From: Chrysomallon squamiferum
Lineage: Eukaryota; Mollusca; Gastropoda; Neomphalida; Peltospiridae
Direction: 5' to 3'
Assembly: GCA_012295275.1 (NCBI GenBank)
Contig: CM022677.1
Location: 6,433,280-6,497,279 of the forward strand
Length of the DNA stretch: 64,000 nucleotides
Of the stretch, positions 8,844 through 60,452 are shown one piece after another. Positions within the stretch are counted from its first letter, which is position 1. Each line of letters opens with the position of its first letter. The notes under the pieces are model-generated. The model saw nothing but the letters and a program-made list of their open reading frames with translations, was not told the DNA's origin and ran no database searches. The position numbers and the translations under genes are program-made.

Positions 8844-9971
8844 CAGTTGACTATCACTAATCCGGCATCATCGGGACCTGGAGGGTGCCGGATTAGTCAT
8901 TTTGCCGGATTAGCCATTAGGTTAGGATACACCAAACTGTGTCATGCCTTTGAAAGCTCGAGGACGTAAACTTTCACCGATGACCAGTAACTTACACCTG
9001 CGTGTTTCTGCAGCATTGGAGCAGCCCAGCACAGTAACACGGTCTTTCGATGCTTTATAACCTGTCGGCGATTCTGTATCCTCCGATTTCAGTGTTCTTT
9101 TGGGTGTACATTTCCAAAAGAGTGCAGCCTCATCTGCGATATAAACCTGGTCAGGACTTAAATTTTCATCACTGACCAATTTGGTGAACTCGTCAACAAA
9201 TTTTGTAGCTGCTTCATTGTCAGCTGATCTTTTTCGCCACACACTGCACGAAACTGTAAGCTATGTCGTTCCTTAAAACGTTGCAACCATCCTTCACTGT
9301 AATCGCACTGATGTTCCAGTCCGAGTTCTTCATGAAATAGTTTTGCTTGTTCCTTCACAAGATCACCTGACAGTTCGACTCCTTCACTTTCACGCAACTT
9401 AAACCACCTCGTCATTACTTGATCTAGTTCTGCATTTTTACCAGGTTTCATTGTTTTCGTTTTAAACATCTGTTTTTTCGACTCACTGTAAACAAAAAAT
9501 TTAAGTAACTTTTCTTTTTGTTTCTTTATGTCATAAAATTCACATAAACCTCTCACAGACACGCCATTGTGAAGTCTTTTCTGCTATGGACAATGTTCGG
9601 TGTTTGCGCTTAACACCGCAAGAAGCACTTCTATTATTCACTGATACCATAATTGGGGCTAAAATGACCTTCTTACAATAATAAATGTTAAAAATCAAAC
9701 CGGAAAAGCTTGCCTGTGTTTACAGCTGGTACCAGTTTGTTGATGACAAAACAGCGCCTCCAGTCGTAGCGGCCAGTCAACTTAAAGAAAACATAACACA
9801 GCTTCACTAACCCGAGGAAAGCGCACGCACTGCACGAGGACAATACCATACAGCACAAGAATCGATCACAGAATCGATAGTGCCGCGTGAGTCATCGCCT
9901 ACCATCCCCCCTTCGCCTTAGTCAGTTTTAGTGCCGGATTACTGATTGCCGGACTAGTGATGGTCAAGCTG
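8844..9971 (-). mobile_element. Tigger/pogo-like DNA transposon with both ends
   Basis: The left end reads CAGTTGACTATCACTAATCC and the right end, on the opposite strand, CAGCTTGACCATCACTAGTC. Both are immediately flanked by TA (8842-8843 and 9972-9973), the target duplication of the Tc1/mariner-pogo superfamily, and Tigger elements usually begin CAG. A short GCCGGATTA-type motif is repeated inside each end. Length is 1,128 bp, shorter than a full Tigger (about 2.4 kb), because the 3' half of the transposase is missing. The interior is visibly less AT-rich than its surroundings. Confidence 0.9.
8922..9650 (-). pseudogene. Tigger/Jerky-type transposase, frameshifted and truncated
   Basis: The transposase would bind the terminal repeats through CENP-B-like helix-turn-helix domains and cut with a DDE nuclease. 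A start at 9650 gives KRKHRTLSIAEK, the usual N-terminus; the frame then shifts into SVRGLCEFYDIKKQKEKLL and the second HTH (ELDQVMTRWF ... SEGWLQRFKERHS). Another shift near 9240-9160 leads to VYIADEAALFWKCTPKRTL, the region of the first catalytic Asp (family form NADETALFW), and then KDRVTVLGCSNAAE and RAFKGMTQF. The frame stops at 8922, so the part carrying the other two acidic residues is absent. At least two frame breaks plus the truncation make it non-functional. Confidence 0.88.
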
Positions 9972-10202
9972 TATCATAATCGAAGAGATATTTCGGAGAA
10001 TTTAATGCTGGCTATGACAGAGGAGTCTGTGTCCTATGTCGTCTGGAAGATCATCAGACTGGGTATCTGACAATGTTAGAGTAGACAACATAGCTGTGGA
10101 CATTTTTCTGAGATGCAATTAGTCACATCTTCAAATATTTAAACAGTATTAAAATATCAATTTATATTACAAACAGATTTCTTAATATGAGAGATAATTA
10201 TG

Positions 10203-10783
10203 CAGGGCTCGAAATGGCCAGTAGCCAGGTTACCAAATGCGACCAAAGTTCGGTTTAGGCGACTGGGATGTTAGAAATATTTTGGTTCGTCGCCCCCAAA
10301 AATATTATTTGGGTGACCTGTTTTTTTCTAAAAGTTATAACTCAAGATAATTATTTTATAATAATTATATCGAAATATTTATTTCACATAAAACGAGTGC
10401 CCATAGTTCCATAAGTTGGACGTATCGGCTTACATAATTTGCTAACATTTATTTATAAACAGTACTTTAAAGGATTATCGGTTGGTTAACGGAACAAGTT
10501 ATCATAGGAGATAACTTTCTAACTAATTGTTTGCTATTGTTTTTCCTTTTCAATTCCACCTTTAACTGGCTAAAGAGAAGGCAACGAACAAATTTAGCGA
10601 ACTTTTAGATCTTTACGTTAATAATTATCGTTTGGTTAACGGAACAAGTTATCGTGGAAGATAACTCTATAACCTTGTATTTGCTACTGTTTTTCGTTTT
10701 CCCACGCTAAATTTTACTCAATCATTTCACGTTGCTTTCCTTTAATTTTTATTTTTTGAAAAATCCAAGCATATAATACTATA

Positions 10784-10834
<51 letters not shown>

Positions 10835-11155
10835 CATTATTATATAATTCTATTTTTGTCAAGGTTTGTTTGAAAATGTCTTACCAGCTGATTTGTATAA
10901 CTAGGACTAAATTTGTGTGGCTATTTTAATTAATAAAGAATTTTCGTATTTCATTTTAGATGTTGACAAATTAAGGTAAGCCGATACTTTCAAATTATCG
11001 AACTGCGAACAAATCTTTTATGTGATAAAAATATTTGCTACAAAATTATTAATAGTGGCTCTTGTGTTATAACTTATAGAAAAAAAGAGATGATCCAAAA
11101 AATACTTTTTAGGCGACTAAACCATAATATTTGTTTTTTTAAATTTCGAGCCTTG
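10203..11155. mobile_element. non-autonomous inverted-repeat element (hAT-like ends)
   Basis: Left end CAGGGCTCGAAAT and, on the opposite strand at the right end, CAAGGCTCGAAAT: a 13-bp terminal inverted repeat with one mismatch. Both ends also carry an internal AGGCGACT/AGTCGCCT pair. CAGGG-type ends suggest hAT, but the 8 bases on either side (TAATTATG and TGCTTACT) do not match, so no target duplication supports the boundaries. Inside, a ~140-bp unit is duplicated in tandem (GGTTAACGGAACAAGTTATC at about 10492 and 10633) and contains a GAGATAACT motif, followed by a (TTA)n run at about 10784-10834. No transposase is visible. Confidence 0.6.
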
Positions 11156-11379
11156 TGCTTACTGACATAACGAGCATAATCATCAACTTGAAAGACATTT
11201 GTCTCAAGTTGAAAATGTCAGTTCTGCTGGGAGTTCTTCAAAGCACTCCAATGAACAAAGCAGAGAGAACTTGTATGGGTTTTTTCATTACTATTTTTCC
11301 TATTTAAGCAGCTGTTAATTTGTAATTTCTCCTTCATTTGTATAGAGAACATTTGGGTGGGTGTGTGTGTTTGGGGGGG

Positions 11380-11700
11380 GTACTGGTGTCTGCTTATATA
11401 TTTTATTGTTTGTTTACAGCATTAGTCAGAACAAAATCACAGCACTGCAGACTGAATGGAGAGAAAAGAAATCTGGCAGAAGAAAATGTGAAGTCAGAGA
11501 AAGGATAGTTCAATTTCTGCAACATTTTCCTCAAGATTATGAGTAATTTTGTCTGAATCAGTCGCAGGATTCAAAGGGAGTAATTTGAAAATACTGTCTG
11601 CATGTGAGACTAAATCTTCACTTTGGAGGAAGAATCAACAGACTGCTATTGCACAGTGTGAGCATTCATTTGAATAATGTGTAATTTTTCTAACAGATAA
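11380..11700 (+). other. exon-like segment, unrecognised
   Basis: After a TTGTTTACAG acceptor-like site (about 11410-11420) the frame ISQNKITALQTEWREKK runs open through KCEVRERIVQFLQHFPQDYE to a stop near 11545. Composition is less AT-rich than the flanks. A second short stretch at about 11885-11970 (QDNVELLKYLLKANLSAG) ends at GCTG|GTGAGT, a good donor. They could be exons of an unknown or dead gene, but I see no domain and no joined reading frame. Confidence 0.2.
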
Positions 11701-12288
11701 AGTGATATTTACTGGAATCTGTTCTGAAACATATTTAAAGTAGTAAATATAATTTTAAGGCTATTGTATTAATTGTTTGATTAATTGATTATATATTGCA
11801 ATATATTTTTGTTTGTTATTTTAAATTATGTTTTCATTTTTAAGAAAAAGCTGTCTTGTTCAGTTTAACATTCCAAACATTCCAAACATTCCAGCCAGAA
11901 CCAGTTTACTTCCTTGGGTCAAGACAATGTGGAACTTTTAAAATATCTTCTGAAAGCCAATCTATCAGCTGGTGAGTCAGTTAATCTATTAATTAAATAA
12001 TTTATTTATTTGTTTTGTGTTAATGTATTTGCTTTTTGTTTTGTTTGTTATTGTGTATGCTATTTATTTGTTTATTTTGTGTTTGAATTTGATTGTGTTT
12101 AGATTGGTGGAGTAGCTGATTCTGAGTTTGGTAAGGTTGTTATGTAGTTTGTTACAAAAATGATTTTGGGTTTTGATGATGAAAGGTGTAACTAATGTTT
12201 ATTTTATTTCTTTACTATTTGCTGGTTGCAACATTCACCCACTCCAGTCTATATCTCAGTATGGCTGACTGTTGTTTAAAAACTAGAT

Positions 12289-12345
12289 TGTAGTGAAAGG
12301 TGTGTTTTAAAGGGTTGTTCAGGGCCTAGATCCTTCATGAGATGT
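12289..12345 (+). pseudogene. possible ErbB ectodomain exon remnant
   Basis: The frame reads CSERCVLKGCSGPRSFMRC, the furin-like/domain IV spacing C-x3-C-x4-C-x-GP-x5-C seen in ErbB receptors (human EGFR has CHALCSPEGCWGP). It lies on the same strand 1.4 kb upstream of the transmembrane exon described below, which is where such an exon would be expected. Only one cysteine cluster is present and the frame closes about 45 bases on, so this is a weak, supporting piece of evidence. Confidence 0.4.
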
Positions 12346-12479
12346 TTGCTACTGAGAATGGATTTTAACACAGTATTTTAACACAGTATTTTAGTATCTG
12401 CAGGTTTTTGTCTGTATTTCAATTGTTGTATATTTTATTCTAACACAAGACTGTCAGGCAGTGTGATGCTTGGTAAAAC

Positions 12480-12870
12480 TTTTTACAAGATGTGATTATC
12501 TTCTGTATGTGGCGTCTGAAGTTGGCTGTCAAATGTGACCATATTAAAGTATTTTTCCAAAATCTGTGAAAACTGTAATCACTTTTCATTCATTTACTGA
12601 ATGTTTGTTTATGGAATTTAGTAAATTGTTGTTCATGCAGTGTTTTGTTCTAAAGCTGTTTTGTTAGTTACTTATTAAATTGTTGTTGTTTAAGTTTTTG
12701 TTTACAGTGTGTCAAGGGTTTTACATGTGTGATATTAGTGTAACTGGTCTGCAGTTGATTGGTAGTGAATGGTCTTTGTAAGGTTTTGGTTGACTAAAAC
12801 ATTCTGCAAGTTTCCAGTCTGTTGGTATCTTACCTACTGACCAAATTACATTAAAGAGATCAAGTATTAT
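12480..12870 (-). pseudogene. LINE reverse transcriptase fragment
   Basis: Minus-strand translation from about 12865 gives LDLFNVIWSVGKIPTDWKLA, then LPINCRPVTLIS followed by M and a stop. This is the start of the non-LTR reverse transcriptase domain (family form: lfN..w..G.iP.dWK.a ... NYRPVSLTS). It continues, with stops, through NNNLISN and SFRTKHCMNNNLL (family QhGFRkgrSc.TnLl) and, in another frame, VFTDFGKIL, matching the first catalytic-aspartate motif region (yxDF.KAFD). Several stops and a frameshift make it dead. Jockey/CR1/RTE-like clades are all possible. It is antiparallel to the ErbB relic around it. Confidence 0.8.
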
Positions 12871-13009
12871 TACTAATTAACTTGTACCTTAACTTGTGTT
12901 CTGTTTATTTGTCTAGTGGATAGACAGATTTATTGATTTATGTAGATTGCTGTCAATTTTGTGTTTATATTCCCTGTTAGATGGCCTTAATTAAAAATGT
13001 TTAAAGCAC

Positions 13010-13480
13010 CTTAACTGAGTTAATTAACTTTTAGACTGAGATGTTTTAATCTTAGGTTAACTAAATAACATGGGCCCTGAGACACAACTGAAACAATTAA
13101 TTTATTGTCTTAGTCAGTTAACTAAATAACATTTAACAACTGAGTTAAAACAATTCATTTTTATTATCTTAGTCAGTTAACTAAATAACATGATTAACCT
13201 TATTAACTGAGTTAATTAACTTTTACAACTGAAACAATTAATTTATTGTCTTAGTCAGTTAACTAAATAACATGATTAACCTTATTAACTGAGTTAATTA
13301 ACTTTTACAACTGAAACAATTCATTTATTATCTTAGTCAGTTATCTAAATAACATGATTAACCTTTTTAACTGAGTTAATTAACTTGAGTAACAAGAAAA
13401 CTAAGTAACTGAGATATTTATATTTCCATGATTAACTGAGATATTTATATTTCCATTAAGTTATTAACTAAGATAATTAT
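13010..13480. repeat. tandem repeat rich in TTAACTGAG / AGTCAGTTAACTAAATAAC
   Basis: A unit of about 60-85 bp with blocks TTAACTGAGTTAATTAACTT, AACTGAAACAATTAATTTAT and AGTCAGTTAACTAAATAACA is repeated about five times with length variation. Each unit is itself partly palindromic (GTTAATTAAC). It lies between the LINE fragment and the first ErbB kinase-side exon, i.e. in what was an intron or upstream DNA. Confidence 0.75.
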
Positions 13481-13757
13481 AAATCTGTCTGGGTATTTGT
13501 TAACATAGGATTTAACTCAACAGCAGTCATATTTAAAATATTAACTGAAAACATAGATAGTTAATTAATGTGAACCTTCTCATAAACAGCCTTTGATAAA
13601 TCAGCTTTTACATGAGGAATTATTTTTATTTTATTTTTATTATTATTGTTATTGTTATTTTTATTATTTTTATTTTACATAGTTTCAGATTTTCTGAATG
13701 TTTTGTTTTGTTTTCACTGTGATGAAAAGAAGAAAACTGTAATAATCTCAGTTATAG

Positions 13758-13886
13758 GTGTTTGTTTCTGATCGGGTGTACTGTGGCTGAATTTCAATAT
13801 CACTGGCACAAGAAAGCAAAGGTGAAGAGGAATACTGAGGCAATCAGAGCTAAGATGTCTGGTCATGAAGAAACTGATCTGATATT
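13758..13886 (+). pseudogene. ErbB relic: transmembrane/juxtamembrane exon
   Basis: After a TTATAG acceptor the frame gives CLFLIGCTVAEFQYHW (a shortened hydrophobic stretch), then the basic stop-transfer and juxtamembrane piece HKKAKVKRNTEAIRAKMSG and HEETD. Insect EGFR has KKAKAKEAIRM at the same place, and this segment is positioned just before the kinase exon. The frame is open to TAG at 13910, past the likely exon end; I do not see a clear GT donor in GAAACTGATCTGATA. Confidence 0.85.
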
Positions 13887-14147
13887 AAACACACACTTAT
13901 CTGTTTTATAGACAGATATATATATATATATACATTATAGATATTGTATTCACATTTCTGTGTGAGTAACTTTTTTATGTTGTATATTTACGTAAACCTA
14001 CGACCTTCAGTCCTATCACATTCAAATGATTTTTTTATGTACAAAATTATAAACTTTTGTTAGCCAGTTGTTCTTAATCTGATACAAATGCATGATGCAG
14101 GATGGTAAAGACACACGCACATCTATAAATAAATGTTTTTATTTCAG

Positions 14148-14252
14148 CCCCTGACAGTTAAACCTGACCCCACCCAGCTTGGACTGGTAAAAGAATCTGA
14201 ACTGAAACAAGGAGGAATTGTTGGCTCCGAAGTATTTGGAATGGTATATAAG
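14148..14252 (+). pseudogene. ErbB relic: kinase glycine-loop exon
   Basis: Bounded by TTTCAG|CCC on the left. It reads PLTVKPDPTQLGLVKESELK, then QGGIVGSEVFGMVYK, matching the family pattern LRI.KE.ELKKG.VLGSGAFGTVYK. The loop has GSEVFG instead of GSGAFG, so the middle glycine is lost. The exon ends at AAG, where vertebrate EGFR exon 18 also ends, but the following ATGAGA appears to be a mutated GTGAGA donor. All 35 codons are open. Confidence 0.92.
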
Positions 14253-14405
14253 ATGAGAATAAAATTACATATCTTTGGTATCCACAAGTTGATGGACTAA
14301 ATGTTACTAGTTCCTACTAAAATACATTATTATACTATTATTACTATTGTTATTATATTATTACTTTATTACTACTTTTTATTATTATTATTAGTATTAC
14401 TTTCA

Positions 14406-14436
<31 letters not shown>

Positions 14437-14493
14437 GTTATTGTTTTTATTGTTGTTGTTGTTGTTGTTGTTGTTATTATTATTATTAACCAG

Positions 14494-14764
14494 GGATACT
14501 GGATACCAGAAGGAGAAAGTGTCAAGATTCCAGTAGCTATTAAAGACTTACAGGATGGAACTCCTAACCAGATCAAGGAGCTGTTGGAGGAGGCATGGGT
14601 GATGGTGTCAGTGAAGCATCCTTGTTGTGTCAGAATCCTCACAGTGTGTACATGATGGCACAGATGATGTTGATCACTCAGCTGATGTCACTTGGCTGTG
14701 TTCTCATGAGAAAAACAAAGACCACATTGGAACTCAAGTCCTCCTCAACTGATGTACTCAGCCA
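14494..14764 (+). pseudogene. ErbB relic: kinase N-lobe and hinge exon
   Basis: Bounded by AACCAG|GGA. It reads GYWIPEGESVKIPVAIKDL (the VAIK lysine is kept), QDGTPNQIKELLEEAWVMVS (helix C Glu kept) and VKHPCCVRIL. After a 1-base frameshift near 14645 it continues MMAQMMLITQLMSLGCVL, the hinge, then after a small deletion KNKDHIGTQVLLN, TGA (in place of the family Trp) and CTQ. In vertebrates this span is two exons (19 and 20), so here they are fused or an intron was never gained. The exon ends near CAG|CCAGTGTGAG. Confidence 0.92.
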
Positions 14765-14809
14765 GTGTGAGTGTTGTCAAATATACAGCCATACACACCC
14801 ATATATACA

Positions 14810-14950
14810 GACAGCACACACAGAGACACACACACACAACACACACACAGACACACACACACACATAGACACACACACACACACACACACTACACATAGA
14901 TACACACACACACACATACATTAAAAACACAATACACACACACACACAGA
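14810..14950. repeat. (CA)n microsatellite
   Basis: Interrupted CA repeat with some AGACAC and ATACAC variants, in the intron position directly after the hinge exon of the ErbB relic. Open frames on both strands here are repeat artefacts. Confidence 0.9.
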
Positions 14951-15044
14951 TTTACACAACACAGAGAGACATACAAACACATGTGTAATCACACACATGG
15001 TGAGCACAACACAAATATTTTAAAAAACGTTTTGTTTTCACTGT

Positions 15045-15231
15045 GTTGTTTTTTTTTTTTTTTTTTTTTTTGTTTGTTTGCTGTTGTTTATTTTTGAGGA
15101 AATAATGGTAGTAGTAGTAAGTAGTTTTTTCTTCCTCTATTTAAAAATATTTATTTTCCTTCTAAAGGTTACTTAGAATCTTTGTAATAATAAATAAAGT
15201 AAAAAAAAATTTCAAATAATAGTACTTAAAC

Positions 15232-15273
<42 letters not shown>

Positions 15274-15275
15274 CA
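15045..15275. repeat. poly-T run and (AAT)n tract
   Basis: Poly-T at about 15050-15071 and (AAT)n at about 15233-15272. These sit where the exon half encoding the HRD catalytic loop should be, so insertion or expansion may be linked to loss of that segment. Confidence 0.85.
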
Positions 15276-15334
15276 CTGAAATTGTGAATACAATTTTGAC
15301 ATTATATTTATTTAATTTTTTTAACTTTGTACAG

Positions 15335-15426
15335 TATAAACCCTGAAACAGGTGAAGATCACATATTTTGGATTAGCTAAACTTCTTGATTACAGTGAGG
15401 AAGAGTACTAAGCTATGTGTGGAAAA
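15335..15426 (+). pseudogene. ErbB relic: activation-segment exon, 5' half missing
   Basis: After TTGTACAG, and a one-base slip, the frame gives KQVKITYFGLAKLLDYSEEE, Y, TAA, AMCGK, then a canonical donor GTGAGTGG. Family form: VKITDFGLAKLL ... EY.A.GGK. The DFG aspartate that binds magnesium is Tyr here (codon at 15364) and an in-frame TAA follows at 15409. The part that should precede it (YLEE..LVHRDLAARNVLV) is absent. Confidence 0.93.
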
Positions 15427-15696
15427 GTGAGTGGAACAGCAGTAATTCACATTTCTTACTAATCAAAAACACTGATAAATTGGTCAAATTCAGATTTTAA
15501 ACATTGAAGTTTAAATTCTGTTTTCTTATTAATAGGGAACTTACAAACTGAAACTTGGAACAGTCTTAATTCAGTTTTTTTTTATTAACTGGGAACGTTG
15601 ATATCCTGAAATTTCAAAAAGATTGAATTTGAGATGTTATGCTATAAACTGGAAAATATATGAGAAACGAGATTTTATTCTTTTTCACTGTTTCTG

Positions 15697-15760
15697 ATGC
15701 CAATCACGTGTTTAGCTCTGGACAGAATATTCATAGACAAAACTGATGTCTGGAGTTATA
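15697..15760 (+). pseudogene. ErbB relic: P+1 loop/SDVW exon
   Basis: The frame gives MPITCLAL directly followed by DRIFIDKTDVWSYS. The family has MPIKWLALE.I..RIFTHKSDVWSYG, so four codons around ECIQ have been deleted in frame. The left boundary is TTTCTG|ATG, an acceptor with AG changed to TG. The right boundary TAT A|GT falls inside the SYG glycine codon, at phase 1, as in vertebrate EGFR. Confidence 0.9.
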
Positions 15761-16135
15761 GTCCAACCTTCTTTTTATCTTTTCTCTTTTTTTTATAATT
15801 TTAATGCAGAAATGACATTTGAATATTATATTACATGTAAGATGTATCAATTTTAACACCCTGCTTGTAAAATGAAAAATATATATAATAAAGTGTACTT
15901 AGAAGAGTAGACTAAACACATTTCTCTTACTTTGAGTCATTTTGAAATTAATATTTTTAGTACTAATTTTTAATAATAATAAAGTATGGAAATTAATATT
16001 ACAGGTCCATTAACGATATACTGAATCTTATTTTTTCTAGTCTTGCTTTATGATAGTAAAAATATTCCACTGATACAGAAGGTAAAAAAAAATGAAACTG
16101 ATGGATGTGACTAATTTTATGTTGTTGTTGTTCAG

Positions 16136-16224
16136 GTGTTACTGTGTGGGTACTGTTTATGTTTGGTCAAACTCGATACGACAACATCCACGAAGTTCTC
16201 CATCACGTGAATATTGTGAATTAG
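16136..16224 (+). pseudogene. ErbB relic: C-lobe VTVWE exon
   Basis: After GTTGTTCAG the phase fits the previous exon and gives VTVWVLFMFGQTRYDNIHE, matching the family VTVWELFTFG.KPYENIPA. The frame then drifts (VLHHVNIVN) to TAG at 16222. No later kinase segment (LPQP..CT.D.Y or KCW) is found downstream. Confidence 0.9.
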
Positions 16225-16915
16225 TTCCCTACTCAAACTAATTTGAACGCGCACATAACGACGAAATATGATCGCTAACACTCTGATTTAAAACACGTGT
16301 CTGTAGACCTCAAGTGAGATATCCAGTTCCACATCTAGTCACGTTTTTAATACGGTTGTGTTTGGTTTTTTTGTTAGTTTTTTCGTTTTTACGGTTGTTT
16401 CTCTAGTTTCATTTTTATTGTGTGTACGTGTGCATGTCTTTCTTCCTTTTTTCTTTGCTTTTATTTGTTGTTTCAATTTTAAAAATTAATATGTAAATTA
16501 AACTTAATTTCATGTCTAAGAGAGAATTTTATAAAATAGGTCAAGCAGAATCAAAAGAAAAAGGAGAAGAATAGTTGAGAATGCTATGGGATCCCCAGAA
16601 CAATAATCTGTATTAACCATTAATAATAAATGTATAATAAATCTCAACAGTGAACTACTTTGTACTACACTGATATTATACACATTAATTATATTATACA
16701 GACAGACATACTGATAGGTGAATAAATAGGTAGCTATACAGGCAAAGAGATCACGAAACAATATAAAATAGTTTTAAAATTTAAATGAAATAAAGACATA
16801 CATTTTTTATTTATTATCATATAAATATTTTATTGCAGTTTTTTTTTTTTTGACTACACTTGAATATGTACGAATATATTTAATATAAACTACTTTACAA
16901 AATAATAGAATTGTT
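16225..16915. other. non-coding stretch
   Basis: AT-rich sequence with short T-runs; no gene seen. On the minus strand it lies downstream of the RING/NHL gene and may include its 3' untranslated region; AATAAA-type signals on that strand are present but not diagnostic in such AT-rich DNA. Confidence 0.4.
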
Positions 16916-17213: not shown

Positions 17214-19204
17214 TTACTTTTTACACCAAGTAAATATTTTTATTTCTCCGGTGATCTCTCCCACGTAAAGTTTGTTGTCATCACAACAGACAGACAAAGG
17301 TCCGGACAGTCCATCCCGGCGTGTGAGAATGTCACGTGTAATGTTACCATCTCGTGACAACTGAACAACACAATTTCTATTATAAGCACAAACAAAAATA
17401 TTTCCCTCCCTGTCACATGTAACACCTCTCAAGTCTCTCAATTTGTCTGAATCACGTGACACCCATTTGACGTCACCTGATGACGTCAAACGAACTAAAC
17501 TGTTTCCATTTGACACAACAGTCAGACATTCATCGTGAACTGTGAGACGTGACGGTCTGGGGATCAAATCTGTTGAGATAGAATTAATGAGCTGACCACT
17601 GTCTTTCAGTATGTCCAAGCACTGATTACTGAACTCGGTGACCGCGAGACGGTTGCCAGGTAACACAGCGATATGCTGATACCTTTTAACAGTTTTAACT
17701 TTCTTGATCAGTTTGAAGTTTTCCAAATTTAAAAATAATATTTTACTTTCATTTAGCAGAGAAACAACAACAACATCATCACCCAGCTGATCACGTGATT
17801 CAGCAAGACCGCGTGGTTCAGAGAAAGTGTCGTATCTGTTTATTAGTGATTTTCTTTCTAAACAAAAACATTTTACACATTCATTGTACAAATCACTAAC
17901 AACAATTTTACTTCTGTCTGCACCTGACACCAGCATGAAAACCGGAACAGGATTGAATTTATCTTTTTGTGTTTTTGTGTTAATGGTGTCTGTGTGTTTG
18001 AGTGTGTCTGTCTGTCTGATTATCTGTGTGTCTGTATTTTGTGTTTCCGTATCAATGGTGTGTGTGTATTTGAGAGTGTCTATCTGTGTGTCTGTTTGGA
18101 TTTTTATCTGTGTGTCTGTTTGGATGTTTGTGGATATTTCTCCAATGTGGACTGACATTTCTGCCTTTTTGTCAGATTTTATCAGATTTACTTTAAACTT
18201 TGCTTTTTTTATTTGGGAACGAGATTTGGACAGAAACTCGGAAGTTGTGTTTTGAAGTTTGGTGAATTTTGAAATGTTAATTTTTATATCTGACTCTGAT
18301 TTTCTTGTCAGCAAATCATCCCCCAATTGTATCATTTTTTCGTTTTCCTCAATCAGATGTTTGTGTTCATTGAATAATTTGTCTATTTCTGAGTTTACAA
18401 AGTTCTGAGATTTTTCTATTTCTCTTATTAACCTGTCTTGTTCTTTGTGGACTGCGGCAGTAAAATCTGTGATTAGTGTGTTACCAGTCCTTCTGACCTC
18501 TTCTGTAGTGTCCACGACGTTGATGTCGACGGCTTGGCGAAGTCGCTCGATCATATCATCCATCTCTGTCTGAAGAATTTCTTTAAAGGTTTTGAGACTT
18601 TCAGAAACAGAATTCAGAATTGAAATGTGACCTCCCTTTTTAGCTGAAATAAATAAATAAATAAATAATCAATCAGTGAATTTATTAATTAATTAGGACT
18701 ACTTATTATTAATAAAGATATGTCTACAATGTGAAGTTTTAGAATTTATTTTATCAACTACATTAAAAATCTGAGAAGAAAAATGTCATAAATAAAATTT
18801 CCTCTATTTCTTTAGGCTGTCATGGTTAACACAAATATTTTTAGTTAAACAATCACTAAATTTTTTCTCTTTTTAGTATTTTATTGTAACGAATCTAAAC
18901 ACAACACTGCTGACTCACAAAACTTTGATTGTAGCCGATCATTAGCGGCGTCCTGTAGTGAAAGGTTTATAGGGAATTGATCTGCCCATGTATTCACTGG
19001 TTTTGTGCTGTCTGAGATGTGGACATCCTGCCTGCAGAACGGGCATGTGATTTGTGTGTCGTTGTTGTCGTAATTATGACTAAAGAAGTTCTGCAGGCAT
19101 TTGCTGCAGAACGAATGTCCGCAGTTTAAAATTCGCGGCTTCTTGAAAAGTTCCGTACATATGCAGCACGAAAGATTATCATCAGAGTTTGTAGCTGTTG
19201 CCAT
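17214..19204 (-). CDS. TRIM-like RING finger, coiled-coil, NHL-type beta-propeller protein
   Basis: A two-exon gene: exon 1 at 19204-18919 and exon 2 at 18643-17214, with donor TTT T|GTGAGT and acceptor TTATTTCAG|CT; the phases join to one open frame of about 571 residues. Residues 13-57 form a C3HC4 RING (C13, C16, C28, H30, C33, C36, C54, C57; core ILNCGHSFCSKC and CPFC), predicting E3 ubiquitin ligase activity. Residues about 120-240 are charged and heptad-like (coiled coil). Residues about 267-322 are a TDTQ/TDTLK-type low-complexity linker. The C-terminal ~240 residues hold NHL-like blades, e.g. LRGVTCDREGNIFVCAYNRN and SGPLSVCCDDNKLYVGE. No B-box is visible between RING and coiled coil. 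The ATG at 19204 is chosen because only repeat-derived sequence lies upstream; ATTCACAG just before it could be an acceptor, so a 5' non-coding exon is possible. Substrate unknown. Confidence 0.85.
18940..18942 (-). other. intron note: 18644-18918 of the RING/NHL gene
   Basis: The intron of this gene runs 18918 to 18644 on the minus strand (275 bp), GTGAGT at the donor and a T-rich (TTTA)n tract before the CAG acceptor. Reading through the donor would add CESAVLCLDSLQ and stop, a short RING-only product; splicing is the better explanation because the two halves join in phase. Confidence 0.5.
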
Positions 19205-19229
19205 ATCTGTGAATAACAATAACAATAAC

Positions 19230-19235
19230 AGTAAC

Positions 19236-19295
<60 letters not shown>
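19230..19295. repeat. (AAT)n microsatellite
   Basis: About 60 bp of AAT repeat 30 bp upstream of the RING exon start codon. It generates poly-Leu, poly-Asn and poly-Tyr open frames that are not genes. Confidence 0.95.
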
Positions 19296-19297
<2 letters not shown>

Positions 19298-19299
19298 TA

Positions 19300-20568
19300 A
19301 ATATTTAGAGAACCCCAGTTGAAAAACCACAGACTGCAGCAAAAATGTATTCTACTTAATTGAACGGTATATACAAATAAATAAATAAATGAAATGATAA
19401 ATATATAAACTTGCAAACATAAAATATTCTATTAAACTGTTTACTTGTTTATTTACTATTTAGTTTTATTTGTAAATTAGATAACTTTTAAAGTGCATTA
19501 CGATCTTGCTAAATTTAGCCTGTGACGTCATACTTTATTTGAGAAGGAAGTCGACAGAACTAATATAATAAATGAAGTCAGCTGTAATAAATTATACGAA
19601 CAAAGAATAAAATCACAAAATAAAAGCAAAAACAACAACAAAATAAACATCTGAGTGTACGTGAATGCTGCAAGGTAATTTCGCTATTCATGATCCAACT
19701 CGTACGTGTACAGTAAAAAAAACGTGAAGTAATGTATTCTGTGTAATAATTTAAACGTCAGGTTTACAAAATCTCCTGAATAATAATAATAATAATAATA
19801 AAAAATAATAAAAAATAAATAAACATATACGATATAACTAATTTCTCAGTAGTAGTGATGGCAAATAAATCTCTAAATAATTTTTTTTTTCTTAAGAAAT
19901 GAAAAATGTAATACCCGGAAATAGTTCTGTATTCCTCTGCAAATACTCTATTTAACCACTGGAAAATACTCTGTTTAACCACTGGATAGAAATTGTTTGT
20001 TGTTTTCCTAGCTTTTAGTTATATATTTATTTATTTGTTACTTCTTCTTTGTTCTTGTATTCCAAAACAAGAAGAACAGAAATATATATACATATCCATG
20101 TATGAATGTATGTGTGTATGTGTGTGTGTGCGCAAATACACACAAACACACACACATAATATCAAGCAGTAGTTAAACATTCAGATAATATGGTGAATGA
20201 GAAAAAAAATTGAAATATGTGTGCGTGTGTGTGTGTGTTGCGTTTGTTCAAAAAATTATCTTGGTTTTTAAAAGGACTGTTAGAAAACTGCAGTGTTTGA
20301 TTAGATATAACGTTTACAGACATTTCAACCTGCACCTATTTAACTTAATAATCGATGTACGTGAAATAAATTGATTTATTTTTCATGAGGTAAAATTCAA
20401 TACACTAAAACTGATAACATCAACAAAGCAAAATAATAATAATAATAATAATAACAACAACAACATCAACAACAACAGTAATAATAAATAAATAAATAAA
20501 TAAAAATATAAAAATACACATAATCCAAGAAAACTAAAATTGGAAAGTATTCCATCAACATGAGTTCT

Positions 20569-27560: not shown

Positions 27561-28666
27561 ATATTATACACAGAAATTAAAGATTAACTGGTATAATATT
27601 GGTTACCATATTTAAAAATATGGTTTATTTGAAAGGCCCTCTGTATTTCTCAAGAACAAAAATATATATATAAATAAATAAATAAATAGATGTATAGTTT
27701 TATAAAAATTTGTTTTTGAGAGCTATGAAAAGATATTATCAGTAGTAAACAATTAAAAAAAGAAGCATTAAGCTTATCCAGCAGCGCAGTTTATAAAGCA
27801 AAATGTAGAATCAGGAAAAATAATATGATATTTTATATTTATTTCAAATTCTTCACCTTTTCCTGTATTTTTTATTTAACAGTGTCTTTGCCTCGGAAAC
27901 TTGTTTTACATGGTGGACTGTAAAACTGATGAAATAATCGAGATGCACAAAGATAAAGATAGAATAATAATAACAACAACTAGTTTGGACTGTTCATAGA
28001 GAGAAGCAGGCGACGACAGACAAATTGTTAAAACTGTAGAATTTATGGACTGAAAGAGAAACACGAACTGACGTGGGTATATGTATTTGCTGTTAGAAAA
28101 AGAAAATGGGTATATATATATATATATATACACACAAGTTGTGTGTGATTGTATGTGTGTATATGTGTGCTGAAGGAAATTATAATTTTTGTGTGCGTTA
28201 TCTGAGGCATGGGTATATACAAGAAATCGATGCAGACATAGATACAGAGAGAAAGACAGACAGATGTGAATGTGAAAGGAAGAGTTGGTACAGACATTTT
28301 ATCTGTGAGAAAGAGTTAAAGTGTTTGTTGTCAAATAACTGCTGTATGTGAAAGACAATGTCCTTGTTTATGTAAAAATAAATACAAGTTCCAAATGTTT
28401 TGGGTGTTGTTGTCTTTTCAAAATCCCCCAGAAAAATGAGATAAAAATAGAGATAAAAAACAGAATTATTAATTGGATTATTTTAATGATTTATTCTTAT
28501 ATTATTGTCTTGATTTTGAATTGTTGTTAACATTAACAGATATTTGTAGATAGCTGAAATTAATCAGATTAAAAAAAAATTTTAGAACTAATAAAACCAA
28601 GTTTTTAAAAAAATAGATTTGTAGTAATTTTTATTTTAAAGAAATGAAAATGAAATTATGTATGTC

Positions 28667-28706
<40 letters not shown>

Positions 28707-29244
28707 TTTAAAGAATTAAACATTAATTTGCTTGATTATGGCATCATTATGACAGCCTATGACATCAAATAAAAGTAAAATGGGTTCATAGTACAAAATC
28801 GTAAAGGCATATGTCACTATAATTCATTATTAGAATTCACTGTTAAAAAAGTGGTGTTTAGTTTTGTCTTAAAATGTTATTGTAATTATATTTCTTATTT
28901 AACAAACTTCAGTTGGATTAGTAACATCATGCAGAGTGATCTTGACTGCTCAAAATTTATATGAAAAATTCATTGTTTATATTCAAGGGACAAATCGAAA
29001 AAAAAAGTTTTTAGCAAAATAGGAATTTTACAATAATTAATTATGTAATAATAATAACCTCAAATAAACAAAAACAAATAATGGAAATTGGCTCTTTATG
29101 AACTGTTGGAGTAAATATATGGTACTATTGAAATAGTTTGCTCTAAATAATTTTAAAGAATTGGCTAAATTCGTCTAAATGTAGTAAATCAAATTTAGCT
29201 TGACATAACTTTAACGTGTTTGTAAATATACAAAAAAGACTGAG

Positions 29245-29245
<1 letters not shown>
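27561..29245. other. AT-rich non-coding stretch
   Basis: Contains (TA)n at about 28111-28130 and (AAT)n at about 28669-28703. No open frame with recognisable protein. Confidence 0.45.

Positions 29246-29301
<56 letters not shown>
29246..29301. repeat. (GA)n microsatellite
   Basis: About 54 bp of GA repeat ending in GGGG. Confidence 0.97.
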
Positions 29302-29304
<3 letters not shown>

Positions 29305-30235
29305 TGTATATAAATAATGATTATGTCAGATTATCTTTTCCTAGTTGATAACAAATACACAAGACGTTGATCAATATATACATAATAAAAAAAAACAGGC
29401 AAAGACTATTCTTTCTTTATTTATTTTTGTTTTAAATTATTTGAATGTGCCTTAACATTTATAATGTTAAGAAACTGAAACAATTTCAGAAATCTTTTCC
29501 ATTTTCATTATTGTTTTTAGATAAGATTCAATGAGTTTGAATTTGCAAATGTCAGGATTTAAAACGGTTAAGAACAAATACTATTTTCTTTTTTTTACTT
29601 AAAATTTTGTAACATAACCTGGCTATATTTTATTGTTAAGCAAAAACTCCAAACATTACTAAAAATATTTAAAGTACTGAATTTGCATAATCTTATAATA
29701 TATCTTAAAATAAAAAATGAAAATTTGAATCTGTAATTTGAATTTTTGTACAAACAAATCAGCTTTAATTTCCATGCAGCTTGGAAATATATTAAATACC
29801 AAATTGTACTTCATTTTTTAAAAAGGAAAAGCTATTTTCTTTTCTTTTCTTTATTTCTTTAATTTATTTTTTTTTCTAGTTTGTTTAAAATTAAAGAAAA
29901 ATACAGATTATAAAATAATTAGAAGACATTTGCACATTTTTGAACTAATTTTTTGAGTATTTTGAAAATGTAAACAGCAAATTATAAAATGCTCAGAAAA
30001 ATTTCATTTATGTACATTTTTTCTCTTATTTTTTAATTTTATTTTTTTTCTATCATTTTAAAATTATTATTTCCTATTTTTAAACATTCCTTACAGAAAT
30101 AATTATATTATTCTTTCTAAAATGGGAAAGGCAAATTATAAAAACTGGCAGAAATATCTAAACAGAAATAACTGAATATTTAAAATTTTTAGACTATCTG
30201 TTCAGGTTTTTAAGTAATTTCAACTTGAAGATCAA
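29302..30235. other. extremely AT-rich non-coding stretch
   Basis: Long T- and A-rich sequence with very little G or C. Nothing further can be supported. Confidence 0.5.
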
Positions 30236-30615
30236 TAATTACATAATTTTAAAAATATTTAGACAATGATTACCCCCAGGAAACCCTTGATTGCTCCAGA
30301 TTTAAATAATAAAAAAAAAAAAAAACAAAATTTTCCTTTTCTTTATTTTTTTTTTCATTTGATTTAAATAATATAAAAAAAATTCAGATTTCCCCTAATT
30401 ACATAATCTTCAATTATATTTTTTGTTTGATTACCTGAGAAAACCTTTAGTTTTCCTCTGATTTAAATAATATTTTAGAAAAAGATAGAAGAAATGTTTT
30501 TTGTGTATTTTTTTTTTAAAAAATTCTAATTACTTCTAACTACAAAATTTTAAAAATATTTAAAACTGATTACCCCCTGCAAAACCCTGATTTTCCCCTG
30601 ATTTAAATAATATAA
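30236..30615. repeat. degenerate ~150-bp tandem repeat, about 3 copies
   Basis: The block TTTTAAAAATATTTA(G/A)A, GATTACCCCC and CCCTGATT..CCC/TCTGATTTAAATAATA appears at about 30245, 30405 (diverged) and 30545. The cytosine runs (GATTACCCCCAGG, GATTTTCCCCTGA) stand out in this AT-rich region. Confidence 0.7.
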
Positions 30616-30689
30616 AAATATGATGATTATAAAAATTAATACCTGTATGCAAAAACTTTCACATTCATTTTAGCTTGTTTACAAAGATG

Positions 30690-30960
30690 GCATCCCATAG
30701 CAATGATGAATCTCCATTCCTCTTTCAGTGAGAAAAATTAGAACAACCAAGCACACATCAATGATAAAAACAGAGCAAGCTGCTATGAAGTACAATCTGT
30801 ACACTGGATGTTCTGATCACATTGACAATCTCTTGGAGATCACTGAGTTTTCAAAATTCAAAGTACATTTCAGACAGATTTTCTCTTGAAAGACTGCAAT
30901 GTAATAGCTTTCTGGTTAATCTTTTCTGAAAATGGGTCTTACAACATTTTCCACTGAAGT
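30690..30960 (+). other. exon-like segment, unrecognised
   Basis: A pyrimidine-rich TTCCTCTTTCAG (acceptor-like, ending about 30728) is followed by an open frame VRKIRTTKHTSMIKTEQAAM, KYNLYTGCSDHIDNLLEITE, FSKFKVHFRQIFS and a stop near 30890. GC content is clearly above the flanks. The family is not recognised and no partner exon was found; it may be a lone relic or a transposon piece. Confidence 0.28.
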
Positions 30961-31029
30961 GCTGGCTGAGGCAGCTTGAATCTGTTGTCTAGGATCCTAC
31001 AACAAAATATAATATTCATTAATAAACAA

Positions 31030-33435
31030 AACATAAAATAAAGTGAAAGAAGCATTTGTTGTGAGCTCTAACTGCATTTCACTGTCTTATCAAGAAGTAT
31101 TTTTTCCATACAATTTAAATACAACTGTTCTGTTCACTTTCAATCTCTATAAGGCTGGCATGTACATTTTAATCTAAGGTTTTTCTTGGTGCATAAACCA
31201 TTATTACATTGATTCTGCACTAGCCAAACTTAACATCATTTAAAATGTCAAGCAAAATGGGCATGCTTTATGAAAAATTTATATAAAATTATCAGTATAT
31301 AAAAATAAAATCATCAAAGAAGATAAACAGTGTAAATATTTAAATGTAATTAATTGTTAATTTAATCTGAAAAAATCCTGACAATCTTTTTATAATTTCT
31401 CAGAAGAAAAAAGATAAATGCAGTTGAACACATTTGACTTAAGCATGAATACAAAATGAATTAGTACATTTAAATAGCTATATTGTTATTTCTAAAACTG
31501 ATTAATAAACCCTGATATAATTAATAAGTAAAACCATTTTGATAACAATGTAAAGTTATGAAGAAAAAAAAATGTGGGAAGACAAAACAACATATGTTAC
31601 TGATCAATGAAAACATAATGTATATTATATACTATATCCTTTTACAATCCTTCTCAGGGATTTTGTTTTTTGTTTTAAAGAAAAAGAAAATCGTTGATAT
31701 TTTCTAGCTATCCATTATTATTTATAGTCCAGATAAGATGGAAACACATGAGTGAAAATAAATAAGTAAAGTGCTGCAATCCATAATAAGAAAAAACTGC
31801 TGACAGAAGCTTGGAATTTCCTAAACAAACAGTTCTACAAATTTCCTAAAATCACTCATCTAGATCCATTACTAAAATACATCATTAACATAAATGAAAT
31901 AACAATAAAGTATTTCTTGATCATCTTTCAGGCTCTGAATAAAACAAAGTTGAACTTAAAAAACTGAAACATAAATAAATCCTAGTGAAAACATTAAATT
32001 ATCTCTCAAAATGCTCTTTTATATATTACATGCAAACAGTAATAAATACAAAATACAAAATAAAAGATTATACTTTATAATTGCAGATCATTAATAACTC
32101 AAAACAATATTATTTGCTTGAGTATTATTTTGAGTAGATTTCTCACCACCAAACATAAAACTAATTTTCATGACATTCTTGTCACTCTAGGAGCAACACA
32201 CAATTCTAGGTGTGTACCTTGTACTTGATACAGGGCTGGGAGACCTACTGCACTGGGGTAACAGTGATTTACAAAATAAAATACCAAAATGAGTTGTCTA
32301 TTGTTTTTATCATCATCACACCATTATTCATAAATAAGGTCAACATCATCATAATAAATAAATAAATAATGTTGAAATTAAATGAACAATCTTGAATATT
32401 AGAAAACAAAATATATATGTATGCTGTAAGTAAATGTGACATTTTTTAAAGTGCAAAAGTAAAAATTAACATAAATGGGTAAAAAAAAAAAAAAAAAATG
32501 AATTCATGGACCATGTAATACAAAATTGATTAAGTTACTGAATGTTACTTATATAAAGTGAATTAAACATTTTTTTACTGTAATAATGGAAATTTGTATA
32601 TAATGTTTCTTTTTGGTTCTGTTGTAAACAGAATTTAAAAAAATCCTTTCCGACTGAAATAATTTTAAGAAGTTAAAAATAAAATTACAGTATTATAACA
32701 GCTTAGATTACATTATCATTATGTTTTAGCTTAATACAACATTAGTAAGGATTTATAATGTTTGTATGATTAACTTTTACGATTGCATATGTGGTCAAGT
32801 TAGAAATTATCCATGAAAATGACTTGCTGTAATTATTTCTTACTTTGTCAATTGATTCTGAGTGTAATATTGTAATACTGTTAGTTACTCAAGGCTGTTA
32901 AAAGAAAACATTTTGAAGTAAGAATAATATCCAAATATGACTTCAGTATATATATATCCAAAATGAATTATAATATTGGTTGATTTAATTAACACAATAT
33001 AAATACAGAACACAAAACCAAATGACCTATCTTTTTTATCTGGCACTCAATCCAAATCCCGGTTCAGCAACAGTCTTATTTCACTAATTTCATATTAAAA
33101 CTAATTTCACAGAATAAAATAAACATTATTTCACACAAAATGAAAATTAGCTTTCATTAAAAAATGACAAAAACATGTAAGAATAAAATAATAAAAAATA
33201 AAATAAAAAAATAAAAATTGTCGTCTCTTGGTAATTAAATTATCAAAATACCTCAGAGGCTGAAACTGAATTGTGAATTGATCTTTCTTGTGTGATAATT
33301 TAATGTTTTCAACACGCGTAACCATTACTTCCATTAGATCACACGTGTGGAAATAAAAGTTATGTCTCTGTGAAAATATATAATCTTTACTAGTATTAAA
33401 GGTATTTTATCTGTTTTATCAATGTAAATTATTGC
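31030..33435. other. AT-rich non-coding stretch
   Basis: No gene or bounded element recognised. Poly-A at about 32480-32498 and short AAT/AAAT tracts are present. Confidence 0.45.
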
Positions 33436-33444
33436 TGAATATAC

Positions 33445-34525
33445 GTGAGCATGCAACATGAAAGCAAAAAAGGAACAAAGAGAAGATGTAAGAGTAAAAA
33501 TGGAGAAAGTGAACAGAAAATAAGGATAAGCATTAGCCAAGCTGCTCTGGGATGTCAAATAACGAGATGTTCATCTACACCATTTTATCAGTCAACACCA
33601 GTTCAACAGTCTCAGCAGTCACAGTATGGACAATACAGACAAACCTAATGATCCCACTGTCTGTTTTCTGGGTTAATTTCACCAGTTGTGAACAATCAAG
33701 ATGTCAGTATAAAATTAGATACTTTGATTAGAAAGTTAGATATAATGTGTGATAAACTGGAAAAATTGAACATGTTTGAAAAACAACTGAATAGTATGGA
33801 AATAACAAGATATCAGTGGTAAAATGATTGATATTAAGAAAAAAGTACAAGATATGAAAAGGGTATGAATTACATTCACTGACAGTTTGAAAGAATACAA
33901 AAATCTTGTAGATTTGAAATCTGTTGTCTTAGATATGAACAGTTCTACTCATGAAATGAGAGACAATAATAAAAGTATGACACAACAAATATGTGAATTA
34001 AAATCTCAAGAGAAAAACACAATGACCTATACACTCACTTCATGTGTGACAATTTAATCTTTAGTGGGATACCAGAGAAAGACACAGACAAGGAGTTGAA
34101 AATGTTTATGAAAAATGAAATGAAAGTAGAAAATAATACTGACTTTCACAGAGTGAACAACTGGGGAGAAGTTTGATGGATATATAAGGCCTATTGTTGC
34201 TAAATTCATTTTATATAAAGACAGATAAATAGTGAGAAGAGCTGCACCCAAAACACTGATAAACAAGCCATACAGGGTTAATGAACAATTCCTGAAAGAA
34301 ATTAATGACAGCAGAAAATTACTATATCCACATTACAGCAAAAAGGCAAGGGAAAAGACTGGTGTTAAATGGTGATAATCTGTATATCAAGGGCACGCTG
34401 TTTACACTGGGACAGTTCAGGCCAGAAGCCAGGAACACAAACATGAACAATCATCAGCTAAGTCATACCAAGGTTATTATCTTCTGTCCAAGTATGAGAT
34501 TCTTCAGTGTGGTGATGTTGAGAAG
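33445..34525 (+). pseudogene. LINE ORF1 (L1/Transposase_22-like) relic
   Basis: ORF1 proteins coat retrotransposon RNA through a coiled coil and an RRM-like domain. The segment MFEKQLNSME and flanking KLDTLIRKLDIMCDKLEKL (about 33710-33800) form the coiled coil, followed by DMNSSTHEMRDNNKSMTQQI. Then comes NLIFSGIPEKDTDKE with ELKMFMKNEMKVENNTDFHR, the start of the RNA-binding core. After a stop come PIVAKFILYKDR and AAPKTLINKPYRVNEQFLKE, then DSRKLLYP and, after a frameshift, GDNLYIKGTLFTLG: the usual end of the domain. Stops and at least two frameshifts make it dead. The first 66 codons (33445-33648) may be its N-terminus. The reverse transcriptase ORF2 does not follow. Confidence 0.8.
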
Positions 34526-34565
34526 TTGATAAGATGTTGATAAGATGTTGCACCTCCAACCATGA

Positions 34566-35595
34566 CCTGAGTATTACTGGCACATCAAAGAGACATTCAA
34601 TGTTATCAGATGTGCACACATTGGTACGAGCCATTGTGGATGCAATCGAATGGTAAAAGAGATATACAAGAAGTACACCAATGTTACCAGGGATTCTACT
34701 GAACTGTTTAAGTCAGTGTGCACTGACTGTCAGTGTAAACTGATGACAAAGGGTGTGGTTGTCTAACCAATCTTGTCTAAAGAGTTCTCTGCTCATGGCC
34801 AAGTAGATCTCATTGATATTCAATTGTTACCGCATGGTTCTTTCAAGTGGATTATGGTTTATCAGGATCATCTTACAAAGTTTGTTGTTATCTGCCCACT
34901 GACATCAAAGTGAGCTGCTGAGGTTGCAAACCAACTCATGGACATATTTCTGCTATTCGGTTCTGAATTTACAGCTCAAATTATTTCTGATTTGAAGAGT
35001 TGTGGCCAGAGCTAGTTATAGTCCTTGGTAAACCACGCCACCCACAGAGTCAAGGTTCTGTAGAACATGTGAATTATGACATTAAAGACTCGCTTGTTGT
35101 GAGGATGAGTTAGAATGATACCACTGACTGGACTGTTAAATTTGTTCAGTTTCACAAGAACTTGAGTTTCAATGCTGGAATAAAACAGTCACCTTGTACA
35201 ACCTTATTTGGCATCAAAGTCAGGATTGGTTTGACTTCCTTGTTGTTACCACATTATGTTATCCACAAGCTACAGAAGGAAGATGACTTACTAGACATTC
35301 TGTCCAGCAGCTCAACTCAACCAGACACTCAACCTCTACCAGAAACAATTCAACCTCTATCAGAAACAATTCAACCTCTATCAGAAATGACTCAACCTCG
35401 ATCAGAAACAACTCAACCTCTATCTGAAACGACTCAACCTCTACCAGATACAACTAAACCTCTATCAGAAACAACTTGATCTCTACCAGAAATGATTCAA
35501 TCAAAGAGCAGCATAGACAAGAAAAGAAAGCTTGCAGTAGTCGCACAACAGAAACAAGTTGAGCATGTTGATAAGCGAAGTCGTGTGATTATGAA
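34566..35595 (+). pseudogene. KRBA2/SCAND3-type integrase relic
   Basis: Reads EYYWHIKETFNVIRCAHIGT, SHCGCNRMVKEIYKKY, LFKSVCTDCQ (the H-x..-C-x2-C zinc-binding end) and then the integrase core GQVDLIDIQLLPHGSFKWIM, VYQDHLTKFVVICPLTSK, AAEVANQLMDIFLLF. The block that should hold the second catalytic Asp (SDNG) is deleted, so LLF joins directly to GSEFTAQII. After a frameshift near 35002 it continues WPELVIVLGKPRHPQSQGSV, with the catalytic Glu, then DWTVKFVQFHKN and FGIKVRIGLTS. In-frame TAA and TGA codons (from CGA-type arginine codons) and TAG break it. A QPL(P/S)ET-type 8-residue repeat (about 9 copies, 35316-35490) follows, then a lysine-rich tail. Family members are integrase-derived host or transposon proteins. 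Confidence 0.88.
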
Positions 35596-35600
35596 GGATA

Positions 35601-36172
35601 ATGTCAGATTCTGAGGATGAGAATGAAGCATTGGAATATGGAAATAATAGTGATTTTTAAAGCAAAGAGAGTGACGATGATGTTGTCAATGATACAAATA
35701 ATAATAACACGAATGCAAATGAAGGTGAAAATTAAAGTGATTCTACTGATAACCACGACCCAGGTGGTGATGTTTTACAATATGTAAGGAGGTGTGGCTG
35801 TTGTAGAGGTGTGGCTACAGAATTCTCAGCTTCAGGTAAACCAGCTTCAGTGGATGAATGACACGAGAGTATCGTGAAAAACAATTCAATCCTAAAGAAC
35901 CACTCAGTCCCAAACATATTCCAGATTCATTCAATAATGAGAGCAGCCCTGCTGACTTGTTGATGTTATTCTGGAATGTTGATTTGTGGCAGCTCTTTGT
36001 TTTCAAAACTAATACAGAACTATCTGATATGATAAAAGATTTTATTATTAATGAATATATTAAGTATACTGCTAACCTTATGTTACATTTATATGTTCTA
36101 TTGTTTAATGTTATTCTTCACTCAGCAATTATACTATCCGATTGGTTAGTGGGACTCCTCAAACCAATATAA
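35601..36172 (+). pseudogene. piggyBac transposase N-terminal relic
   Basis: Begins MSDSEDENEALEYGNNSDF with an acidic run typical of PGBD/piggyBac N-termini, interrupted by stops. After frame changes it gives REYREKQFNPKEPLSPKHIP and SSPADLLMLFWNVDLWQLFV then KTNTEL, matching the family start of the DDE_Tnp_1_7 domain (sP.elF..ff...l...iv..TN). The rest (SDMIKDFII ... LLKPI) does not show the catalytic core, so it is truncated. No TTAA-flanked ends were confirmed. It sits directly after the integrase relic, on the same strand. Confidence 0.68.
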
Positions 36173-59637: not shown

Positions 59638-60452
59638 CCACTAGCCTACTTGATACTACATGGCACAACTAGCTTACTTGATACTCCATGGCACAACTAG
59701 CCTACTTGATACTCCATGGCACAACTAGCCTACTTGATACTCCATGGCACAACTAGCCTACTTGATACTACATGGCACAACTAGCCTACTTGATACTACA
59801 TGGCACAACTAGCCTACTTGATACTACATGGCATGGCAACAACTAGGATACTACATGGCACAACTAACCTACTTGATACTACATGGAACAACTAGCCTAC
59901 TTGATACTACATGGCACAGCTAGCCTACTTGATACTACATGGCACAACTAGCTTACTTGATACTACATGGCACAACTAGCTTACTTGATACTACATGGAA
60001 CAACTAGCTTACTTGATACTACATGGCACAACTAGCCTACTTGATACTACATGGAACAACTAGCCTACTTGATACTACATGGCACAACTAGCCTACTTGA
60101 TACTACATGGCACAACTAGCCTACTTGATACTACATGGCACAACTAGCCTACTTGATACTACATGGCACAACTAGCTTACTTGATACTACATGGCACAAC
60201 TAGCCTACTTGATACTACATGGAACAACTAGCCTACTTGATACTACATGGCACAACTAGCCTACTTGATACTACATGGCACAACTAGCCTACTTGATACT
60301 ACATGGCACAACTAGCCTACTTGATACTACATGGCACAACTAGCCTACTTGATACTACATGGCACAACTAACTTACTTGATACTACATGGCACAACTAGC
60401 TTACTTGATACTCCATGGCACAACTGGCCTACTTGATACTACATGGAACAAC
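59638..60452. repeat. 28-bp minisatellite, about 29 copies
   Basis: The unit contains CTACTTGATACTACATGGCA plus CAACTAGC and repeats every 28 bp across about 815 bp. Variation is limited to a few positions (TAC/TCC before ATGG, CACA/AACA, GCC/GCT), with one irregular unit near 59828-59850. Such low divergence implies recent expansion or homogenisation. No long open frame is maintained through it. Confidence 0.98.

Follow-up and report, generated by a model that had tools for sequence, protein, structure and literature searches.

The window analysed here is a stretch of 64,000 nucleotides of the Chrysomallon squamiferum genome (C13:6433280-6497279), in which three-frame translation of positions 13000-16400 revealed six ordered remnants of ErbB/EGFR exons, with introns between them, at 13724-16211. 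The exons of an intact ErbB gene on contig C4 of the same genome, described below, served as queries, and with them exons a, b, c, e, f and g were all found to be present, in that order and on the forward strand. Exon a (13724..13878), which houses the transmembrane and juxtamembrane regions, begins about 35 bases upstream of the start given in the first-pass annotation; it has suffered a 6-base and a 1-base deletion, and its donor GT has become CT. Exon b (14148..14252), with the G-loop (PLTV...GMVYK), has its donor altered from GT to AT. Exon c, encoding the WIPEG, VAIK and NWC region, extends from 14494 to about 14766, its end being set by eye at a GTGAGT donor, and is marred by a 6-base in-frame deletion, a tryptophan-to-stop change, a 2-base insertion and a 1-base deletion. 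Exon e (15334..15426) runs from YFG, in the place of DFG, to GGK, and has one stop at codon e26, shared by the clade discussed below, and another at e2. Exon f (about 15697..15762; DVWSYS, to SYS) bears a 12-base in-frame deletion common to sister copies and an acceptor changed from AG to TG, while exon g (16138 to about 16211; VTVWVLFMFG...) is broken after HEVLH. With the C4 exon queries no match to exon d, which houses the HRD loop, and none to exon h was found in the window, and none of six pieces of the C4 ectodomain matched there at E up to 0.1. The remnant therefore retains VAIK, while the HRD exon was not found, DFG reads YFG, and the frame is interrupted by stops and frameshifts, much as the first-pass annotation had described; the two mutated splice sites that it reported have become at least three (donors of a and b, acceptor of f).

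The DNA that surrounds the remnant is itself duplicated. A segment at 9744..16501 on the forward strand matches DNA next to other ErbB copies, in introns as well as in flank, with identities of about 68-98% in its pieces, mostly 80-90%. Homology to sister copies extends past the remnant to about 16501, and the left limit of 9744 is merely the end of the compared stretch. Window positions 9744-16203 are homologous, in pieces, to the copy at 5229k, which lacks about 12.8-14.4k; positions 10298-16211 are homologous to the 2410k copy, and positions 10811-15884, again in pieces, to the 5197k copy, so that among the stretches compared the extents and ends of the unit differ from copy to copy. Convergent with the remnant lies a gene of TRIM type on the reverse strand (17217..19351), comprising a 484-residue open frame and a RING exon, whose NHL match falls slightly below the Pfam cut-off. 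A second repeated block occupies 27971..36012 on the forward strand, the same strand as the remnant and about 11 kb from it. Within this block a forward open frame at 35114-35476 has no Pfam match. By eye it resembles KRBA2-like integrase proteins. Elsewhere in the window there are pieces of a Tc5/DDE_1-type transposase on the reverse strand at 8925-9583 (Pfam HTH_Tnp_Tc5 and DDE_1), and a 28-base tandem repeat of 29 copies with 94% matches at 59640-60452.

The identity of the remnant is clear. When its joined reading (229 amino acids, with X at stops) was compared with the PDB, EGFR chains gave the best match (E 4.5e-94), and EGFR accounted for all 60 of the best 60 among 655 distinct PDB sequences matched. 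This match, together with the C4 exon queries, confirms the six-block ErbB/EGFR kinase pseudogene originally proposed: the window remnant is ErbB/EGFR by descent, and chance is excluded. The intact relative, which emerged from a search of the same genome along with many further ErbB loci, lies at C4:2834-2850k on the minus strand. Its kinase exons are open and encode VAIK, HRDLAARN and DFG; a transmembrane exon is present too, as are parts of the ectodomain, among them an L domain, with a gap of Ns interrupting the ectodomain. The junctions in the window agree with the intron positions of this gene, namely after VYK, after TQIAR, after GGK and inside the glycine codon of SYG, which bears out the conserved intron positions first recognised from the window alone. 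Set against the exon borders of human EGFR, the snail gene seems to be missing an intron within exon c and to carry an extra one after NVL.

The whole genome (404,604,130 bases in 22 contigs) was covered by two protein searches. From the 261 genome matches listed, 179 were assigned to ErbB by place and identity, and merging of those within 6 kb on the same strand gave at least 41 ErbB loci: 33 on C13, where they span 1.60-14.73 Mb of a contig of 28.28 Mb, six on C14, and single loci on C11 and C4. Of the 41, seven are supported by one match each, and since only 150 of 151 and 150 of 302 candidates were scored in the respective searches, more ErbB fragments may exist. The idea of a single dead copy is ruled out by these searches. 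Sequence was read for 22 of the 41 loci, and the clade and lesion counts given below cover these 22.

The neighbours of the ErbB copies recur in a characteristic way. A protein search for relatives of the TRIM-like gene, in which 90 of 663 candidates were scored, gave at least 136 matches at many tens of loci; they lie chiefly on C13, C14 and C12, and many have long open frames. Such a gene lies within 12 kb of seven of the 41 ErbB loci, and in all seven it is downstream and convergent, at a distance of 6.9-9.4 kb at six loci and of about 3 kb from the window remnant. In 5000 random placements it fell near 2.69 loci on average (P 0.015), while the downstream-convergent arrangement arose at a mean of 0.68 and a maximum of 5; an earlier test with 27 loci had found six near a TRIM-like gene, against a null mean of 1.97 and maximum of 9. 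The count of neighbours is thus a modest signal, and the uniform arrangement is the stronger one. Sequence like the second repeated block likewise occurs within 12 kb of eight of the 41 loci, at seven of which it is downstream on the opposite strand (null mean 0.43, maximum 6 in 5000); one block neighbour (the C13:2435k fragment) is differently arranged. One piece of the block, 31112-32943 of the window, has many copies, concentrated in the first 15.5 Mb of C13 and including one that is 99% identical at C13:14.166 Mb; almost all of the long ones lie on this contig. These recurring arrangements of neighbours fit the duplication of mosaic blocks better than they fit retrocopying or a single transposon.

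The window copy and 16 others among the 22 sequences read form a clade, here called clade B, with 100% ultrafast bootstrap support, although branching inside it is weakly supported, several nodes falling below 50%. Its members have a striking set of lesions in common. All ten clade-B copies that possess exon a show the identical 6-base and 1-base deletions there, the latter of which means that the transmembrane exon is frameshifted clade-wide. The 6-base deletion in exon c is found in 16 of the 17, and the remaining copy has a 15-base deletion in the same place. Codon c88 has changed from TGG to TGA in 14 of the 17, and the others read CGA, TCA and TCA, each one step from TGA. Codon e26 is a TAA stop in every one of the 15 copies having exon e. 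A stop at a30 (eight of ten copies) is absent from the window and from L045, and one at g31 (five of seven) is likewise absent from the window. Exons a and b are missing from seven of the 17. Judged from these sequences, the frameshift and stops common to the copies indicate that the founder of clade B was probably already disabled, and some of the common changes seem, from the in-frame deletions, to be older than the loss. Some of the lesions in the window copy are found across the clade and do not date the loss of this one copy alone. The changes that belong to the window copy are the absence of exon d, which is present in 14 of the 16 other clade-B copies in the stretches read, the altered donor of b and acceptor of f, the 2-base insertion in c and the break in g; its 1-base deletion in exon c is also present in the 5004k copy, and its YFG in the 5197k copy. 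In stretches of 3-10 kb around the 17 copies no ectodomain exon was found save in one, the C11 copy (L013), where an L-domain remnant (C11:5047354-5047533) lies close upstream of the clade-B transmembrane exon. On the evidence of that one copy, it is possible that the founder had an internal deletion of the ectodomain.

A second group of four of the 22 sequences, clade A2, is also supported at 100% ultrafast bootstrap and comprises copies at 4066k, 5645k, 14730k and 4824k on C13. The first of these (C13:4052-4072k; L033, L034) has all eight kinase-region exons without stops, frameshifts or indels, intact kinase motifs and ectodomain exons, and so looks, from its sequence, like a second full-length ErbB gene. 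It alone of the four A2 copies read is free of stops, frameshifts and missing exons over the eight exons: exon a of the 5645k copy contains indels, no exon b was found in the part of the 14730k copy that was read, and the 4824k copy contains three stops. Loci at 4271k, 4496k and 14714k are A2-like by their protein search matches, and the exon e match at 4271k contains TGA. One A2 sequence, L044, has TGA at e26 and at g31, the codons at which clade B has stops, and such recurrent change or gene conversion blurs the picture of the founder.

The pattern of substitution distinguishes these lineages. The C4 branch has 36 synonymous and 19 nonsynonymous changes (ratio 0.16, p 2e-11 against neutrality), and the clade-B stem 19 and 22 (ratio 0.34, p 0.001). 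After the burst, distinct events in clade B number 61 synonymous, 184 nonsynonymous and 17 stop, close to a neutral expectation of 71.4, 180.2 and 10.4 (p 0.26). The window copy by itself has nine synonymous, 39 nonsynonymous and three stop changes (p 0.15); when the broken exon g is left out, these become 2, 24 and 1 (p 0.016), with synonymous changes below expectation, the opposite of constraint. The clade-B stem thus shows constraint, and the later changes look neutral. The A2 stem, reconstructed from the majority of three copies with L044 omitted, has seven synonymous and 25 nonsynonymous changes, a ratio of 1.06 that does not depart from neutrality, so even the A2 copies may be relaxed.

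The explanation that best accommodates these results, and which we hold to be very probably correct, is that one ErbB paralogue died and was afterwards multiplied as a passenger of segmental duplications, the window remnant, which retains introns and flanking DNA, being an unprocessed (duplicated) pseudogene. The first-pass annotation had invoked either segmental duplication or the decay of a paralogue; the DNA-level copying with introns kept agrees with this, but the proposal was incomplete in that the window copy is one of 41 loci, and one of 17 in a clade with shared lesions. An ErbB gene would first have been duplicated in the snail lineage, leaving a conserved copy on C4. One descendant would have lost its ectodomain, or never received one, and would have gained disabling changes. 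Segmental duplication would then have produced many copies of the dead segment across the first half of C13 and others on C14 and C11, the segment travelling as a passenger inside mosaic blocks together with the RING/NHL gene or the other repeat. The copies would finally have decayed separately, the window copy losing exon d and its 3' end. We infer this order of events, the passenger role and the absence of any product from the patterns described above.

It might be supposed instead that many live ErbB duplicates died independently and that gene conversion then spread the same stops and deletions among them. On C13, where the copies are numerous and closely spaced, conversion is plausible, and L044, which lies outside clade B, has stops at two of the same codons; but the e26 stop and the exon c deletion are also carried by copies on C11 (L013) and C14 (L014, L028), and post-burst change is neutral across clade B, which makes this course of events unlikely. 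Transposition of a mobile element that had captured an ErbB fragment seems similarly improbable. A piece of the 27971-36012 block has many copies, and six of the seven clade-B copies that lack exons a and b adjoin sequence like that block; yet the extents of the unit vary, other copies adjoin the TRIM-like gene instead, and the long copies of the block are nearly all on C13 and not genome-wide. 

Continued activity of the clade-B copies, in the form of regulatory RNA or of short exon c proteins, might be argued from the AG and GT edges of exon c, which are found in all 22 sequences (with extents extrapolated from the C4 exon). Their substitutions nevertheless fit neutrality, with 17 distinct new stops, and seven of the 17 have no exons a and b, so we regard continuing activity as decidedly doubtful. 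More speculative still is a birth-and-death burst of ErbB over some forty loci that left the C4 gene and at least one receptor of full-length appearance, C13:4066k, whose group evolved near-neutrally or adaptively and might serve scale or shell tissue, with the dead clade-B copies as RNA regulators of the live ones; we would give it very little credence. The assembly is nanopore-based (PMC7142155), so that one or another minor indel seen in the window might be erroneous. A processed pseudogene or an assembly artefact is nonetheless hardly conceivable: a retrocopy is ruled out by the retained introns, which are homologous between copies, and assembly error by stops of the same substitution type common to many separate loci.

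ErbB is a central developmental receptor, and the interest of the present case lies in the scale of its multiplication and in the surviving paralogue. With about forty loci, most of those read descending from a probably dead founder, this genome shows that gene copies can become more numerous although selection does not act on the gene itself, a point to be weighed wherever gene families of vent animals are said to have expanded adaptively. A separate and testable question is posed by the paralogues of A2 type, one of which looks full length. Literature searches on the epidermal growth factor receptor of Chrysomallon found nothing, those on ErbB pseudogenes in molluscs and on EGFR family expansion in gastropods found nothing pertinent, and the main texts of PMC7142155 and PMC7736800 do not mention ErbB or EGFR. 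A public protein search yielded no mollusc copy numbers among the best 120 of 726 proteins.

The statement in the first-pass annotation that ErbB is usually single copy in invertebrates does not strictly hold in molluscs: the available portion of Table 1 in PMC4914847 gives two EGFR copies each for Lottia gigantea and Crassostrea gigas, and the largest number in that portion is eight, in Macrostomum. The snail copies share their kinase sequence and transmembrane/juxtamembrane layout with mollusc ErbB/EGFR genes, and the same partial source records ErbB duplicates for certain spiralians, among them a Lottia copy whose kinase is potentially inactive; the snail differs in having at least 41 loci, with 17 of the 22 read being dead copies. 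Lineage-specific increase in copy number in this same species has been described for DMBT1, in the portion of PMC7142155 available to us, where the copies are reported as expressed tandem genes, whereas the clade-B copies of ErbB are broken and dispersed. The spread of gene copies in duplicated blocks is also familiar from pseudogenes in segmental duplications or low-copy repeats, such as DPY19L2 (PMC1475853) and FAM247 (PMC7549372), as far as the accessible parts of those reports describe them; here, in contrast, the gene is a receptor kinase, the host is a snail, and the copies make up tens of loci concentrated on half of one contig. The kind of pseudogene is thus a known one, and its extent for ErbB is unusual.
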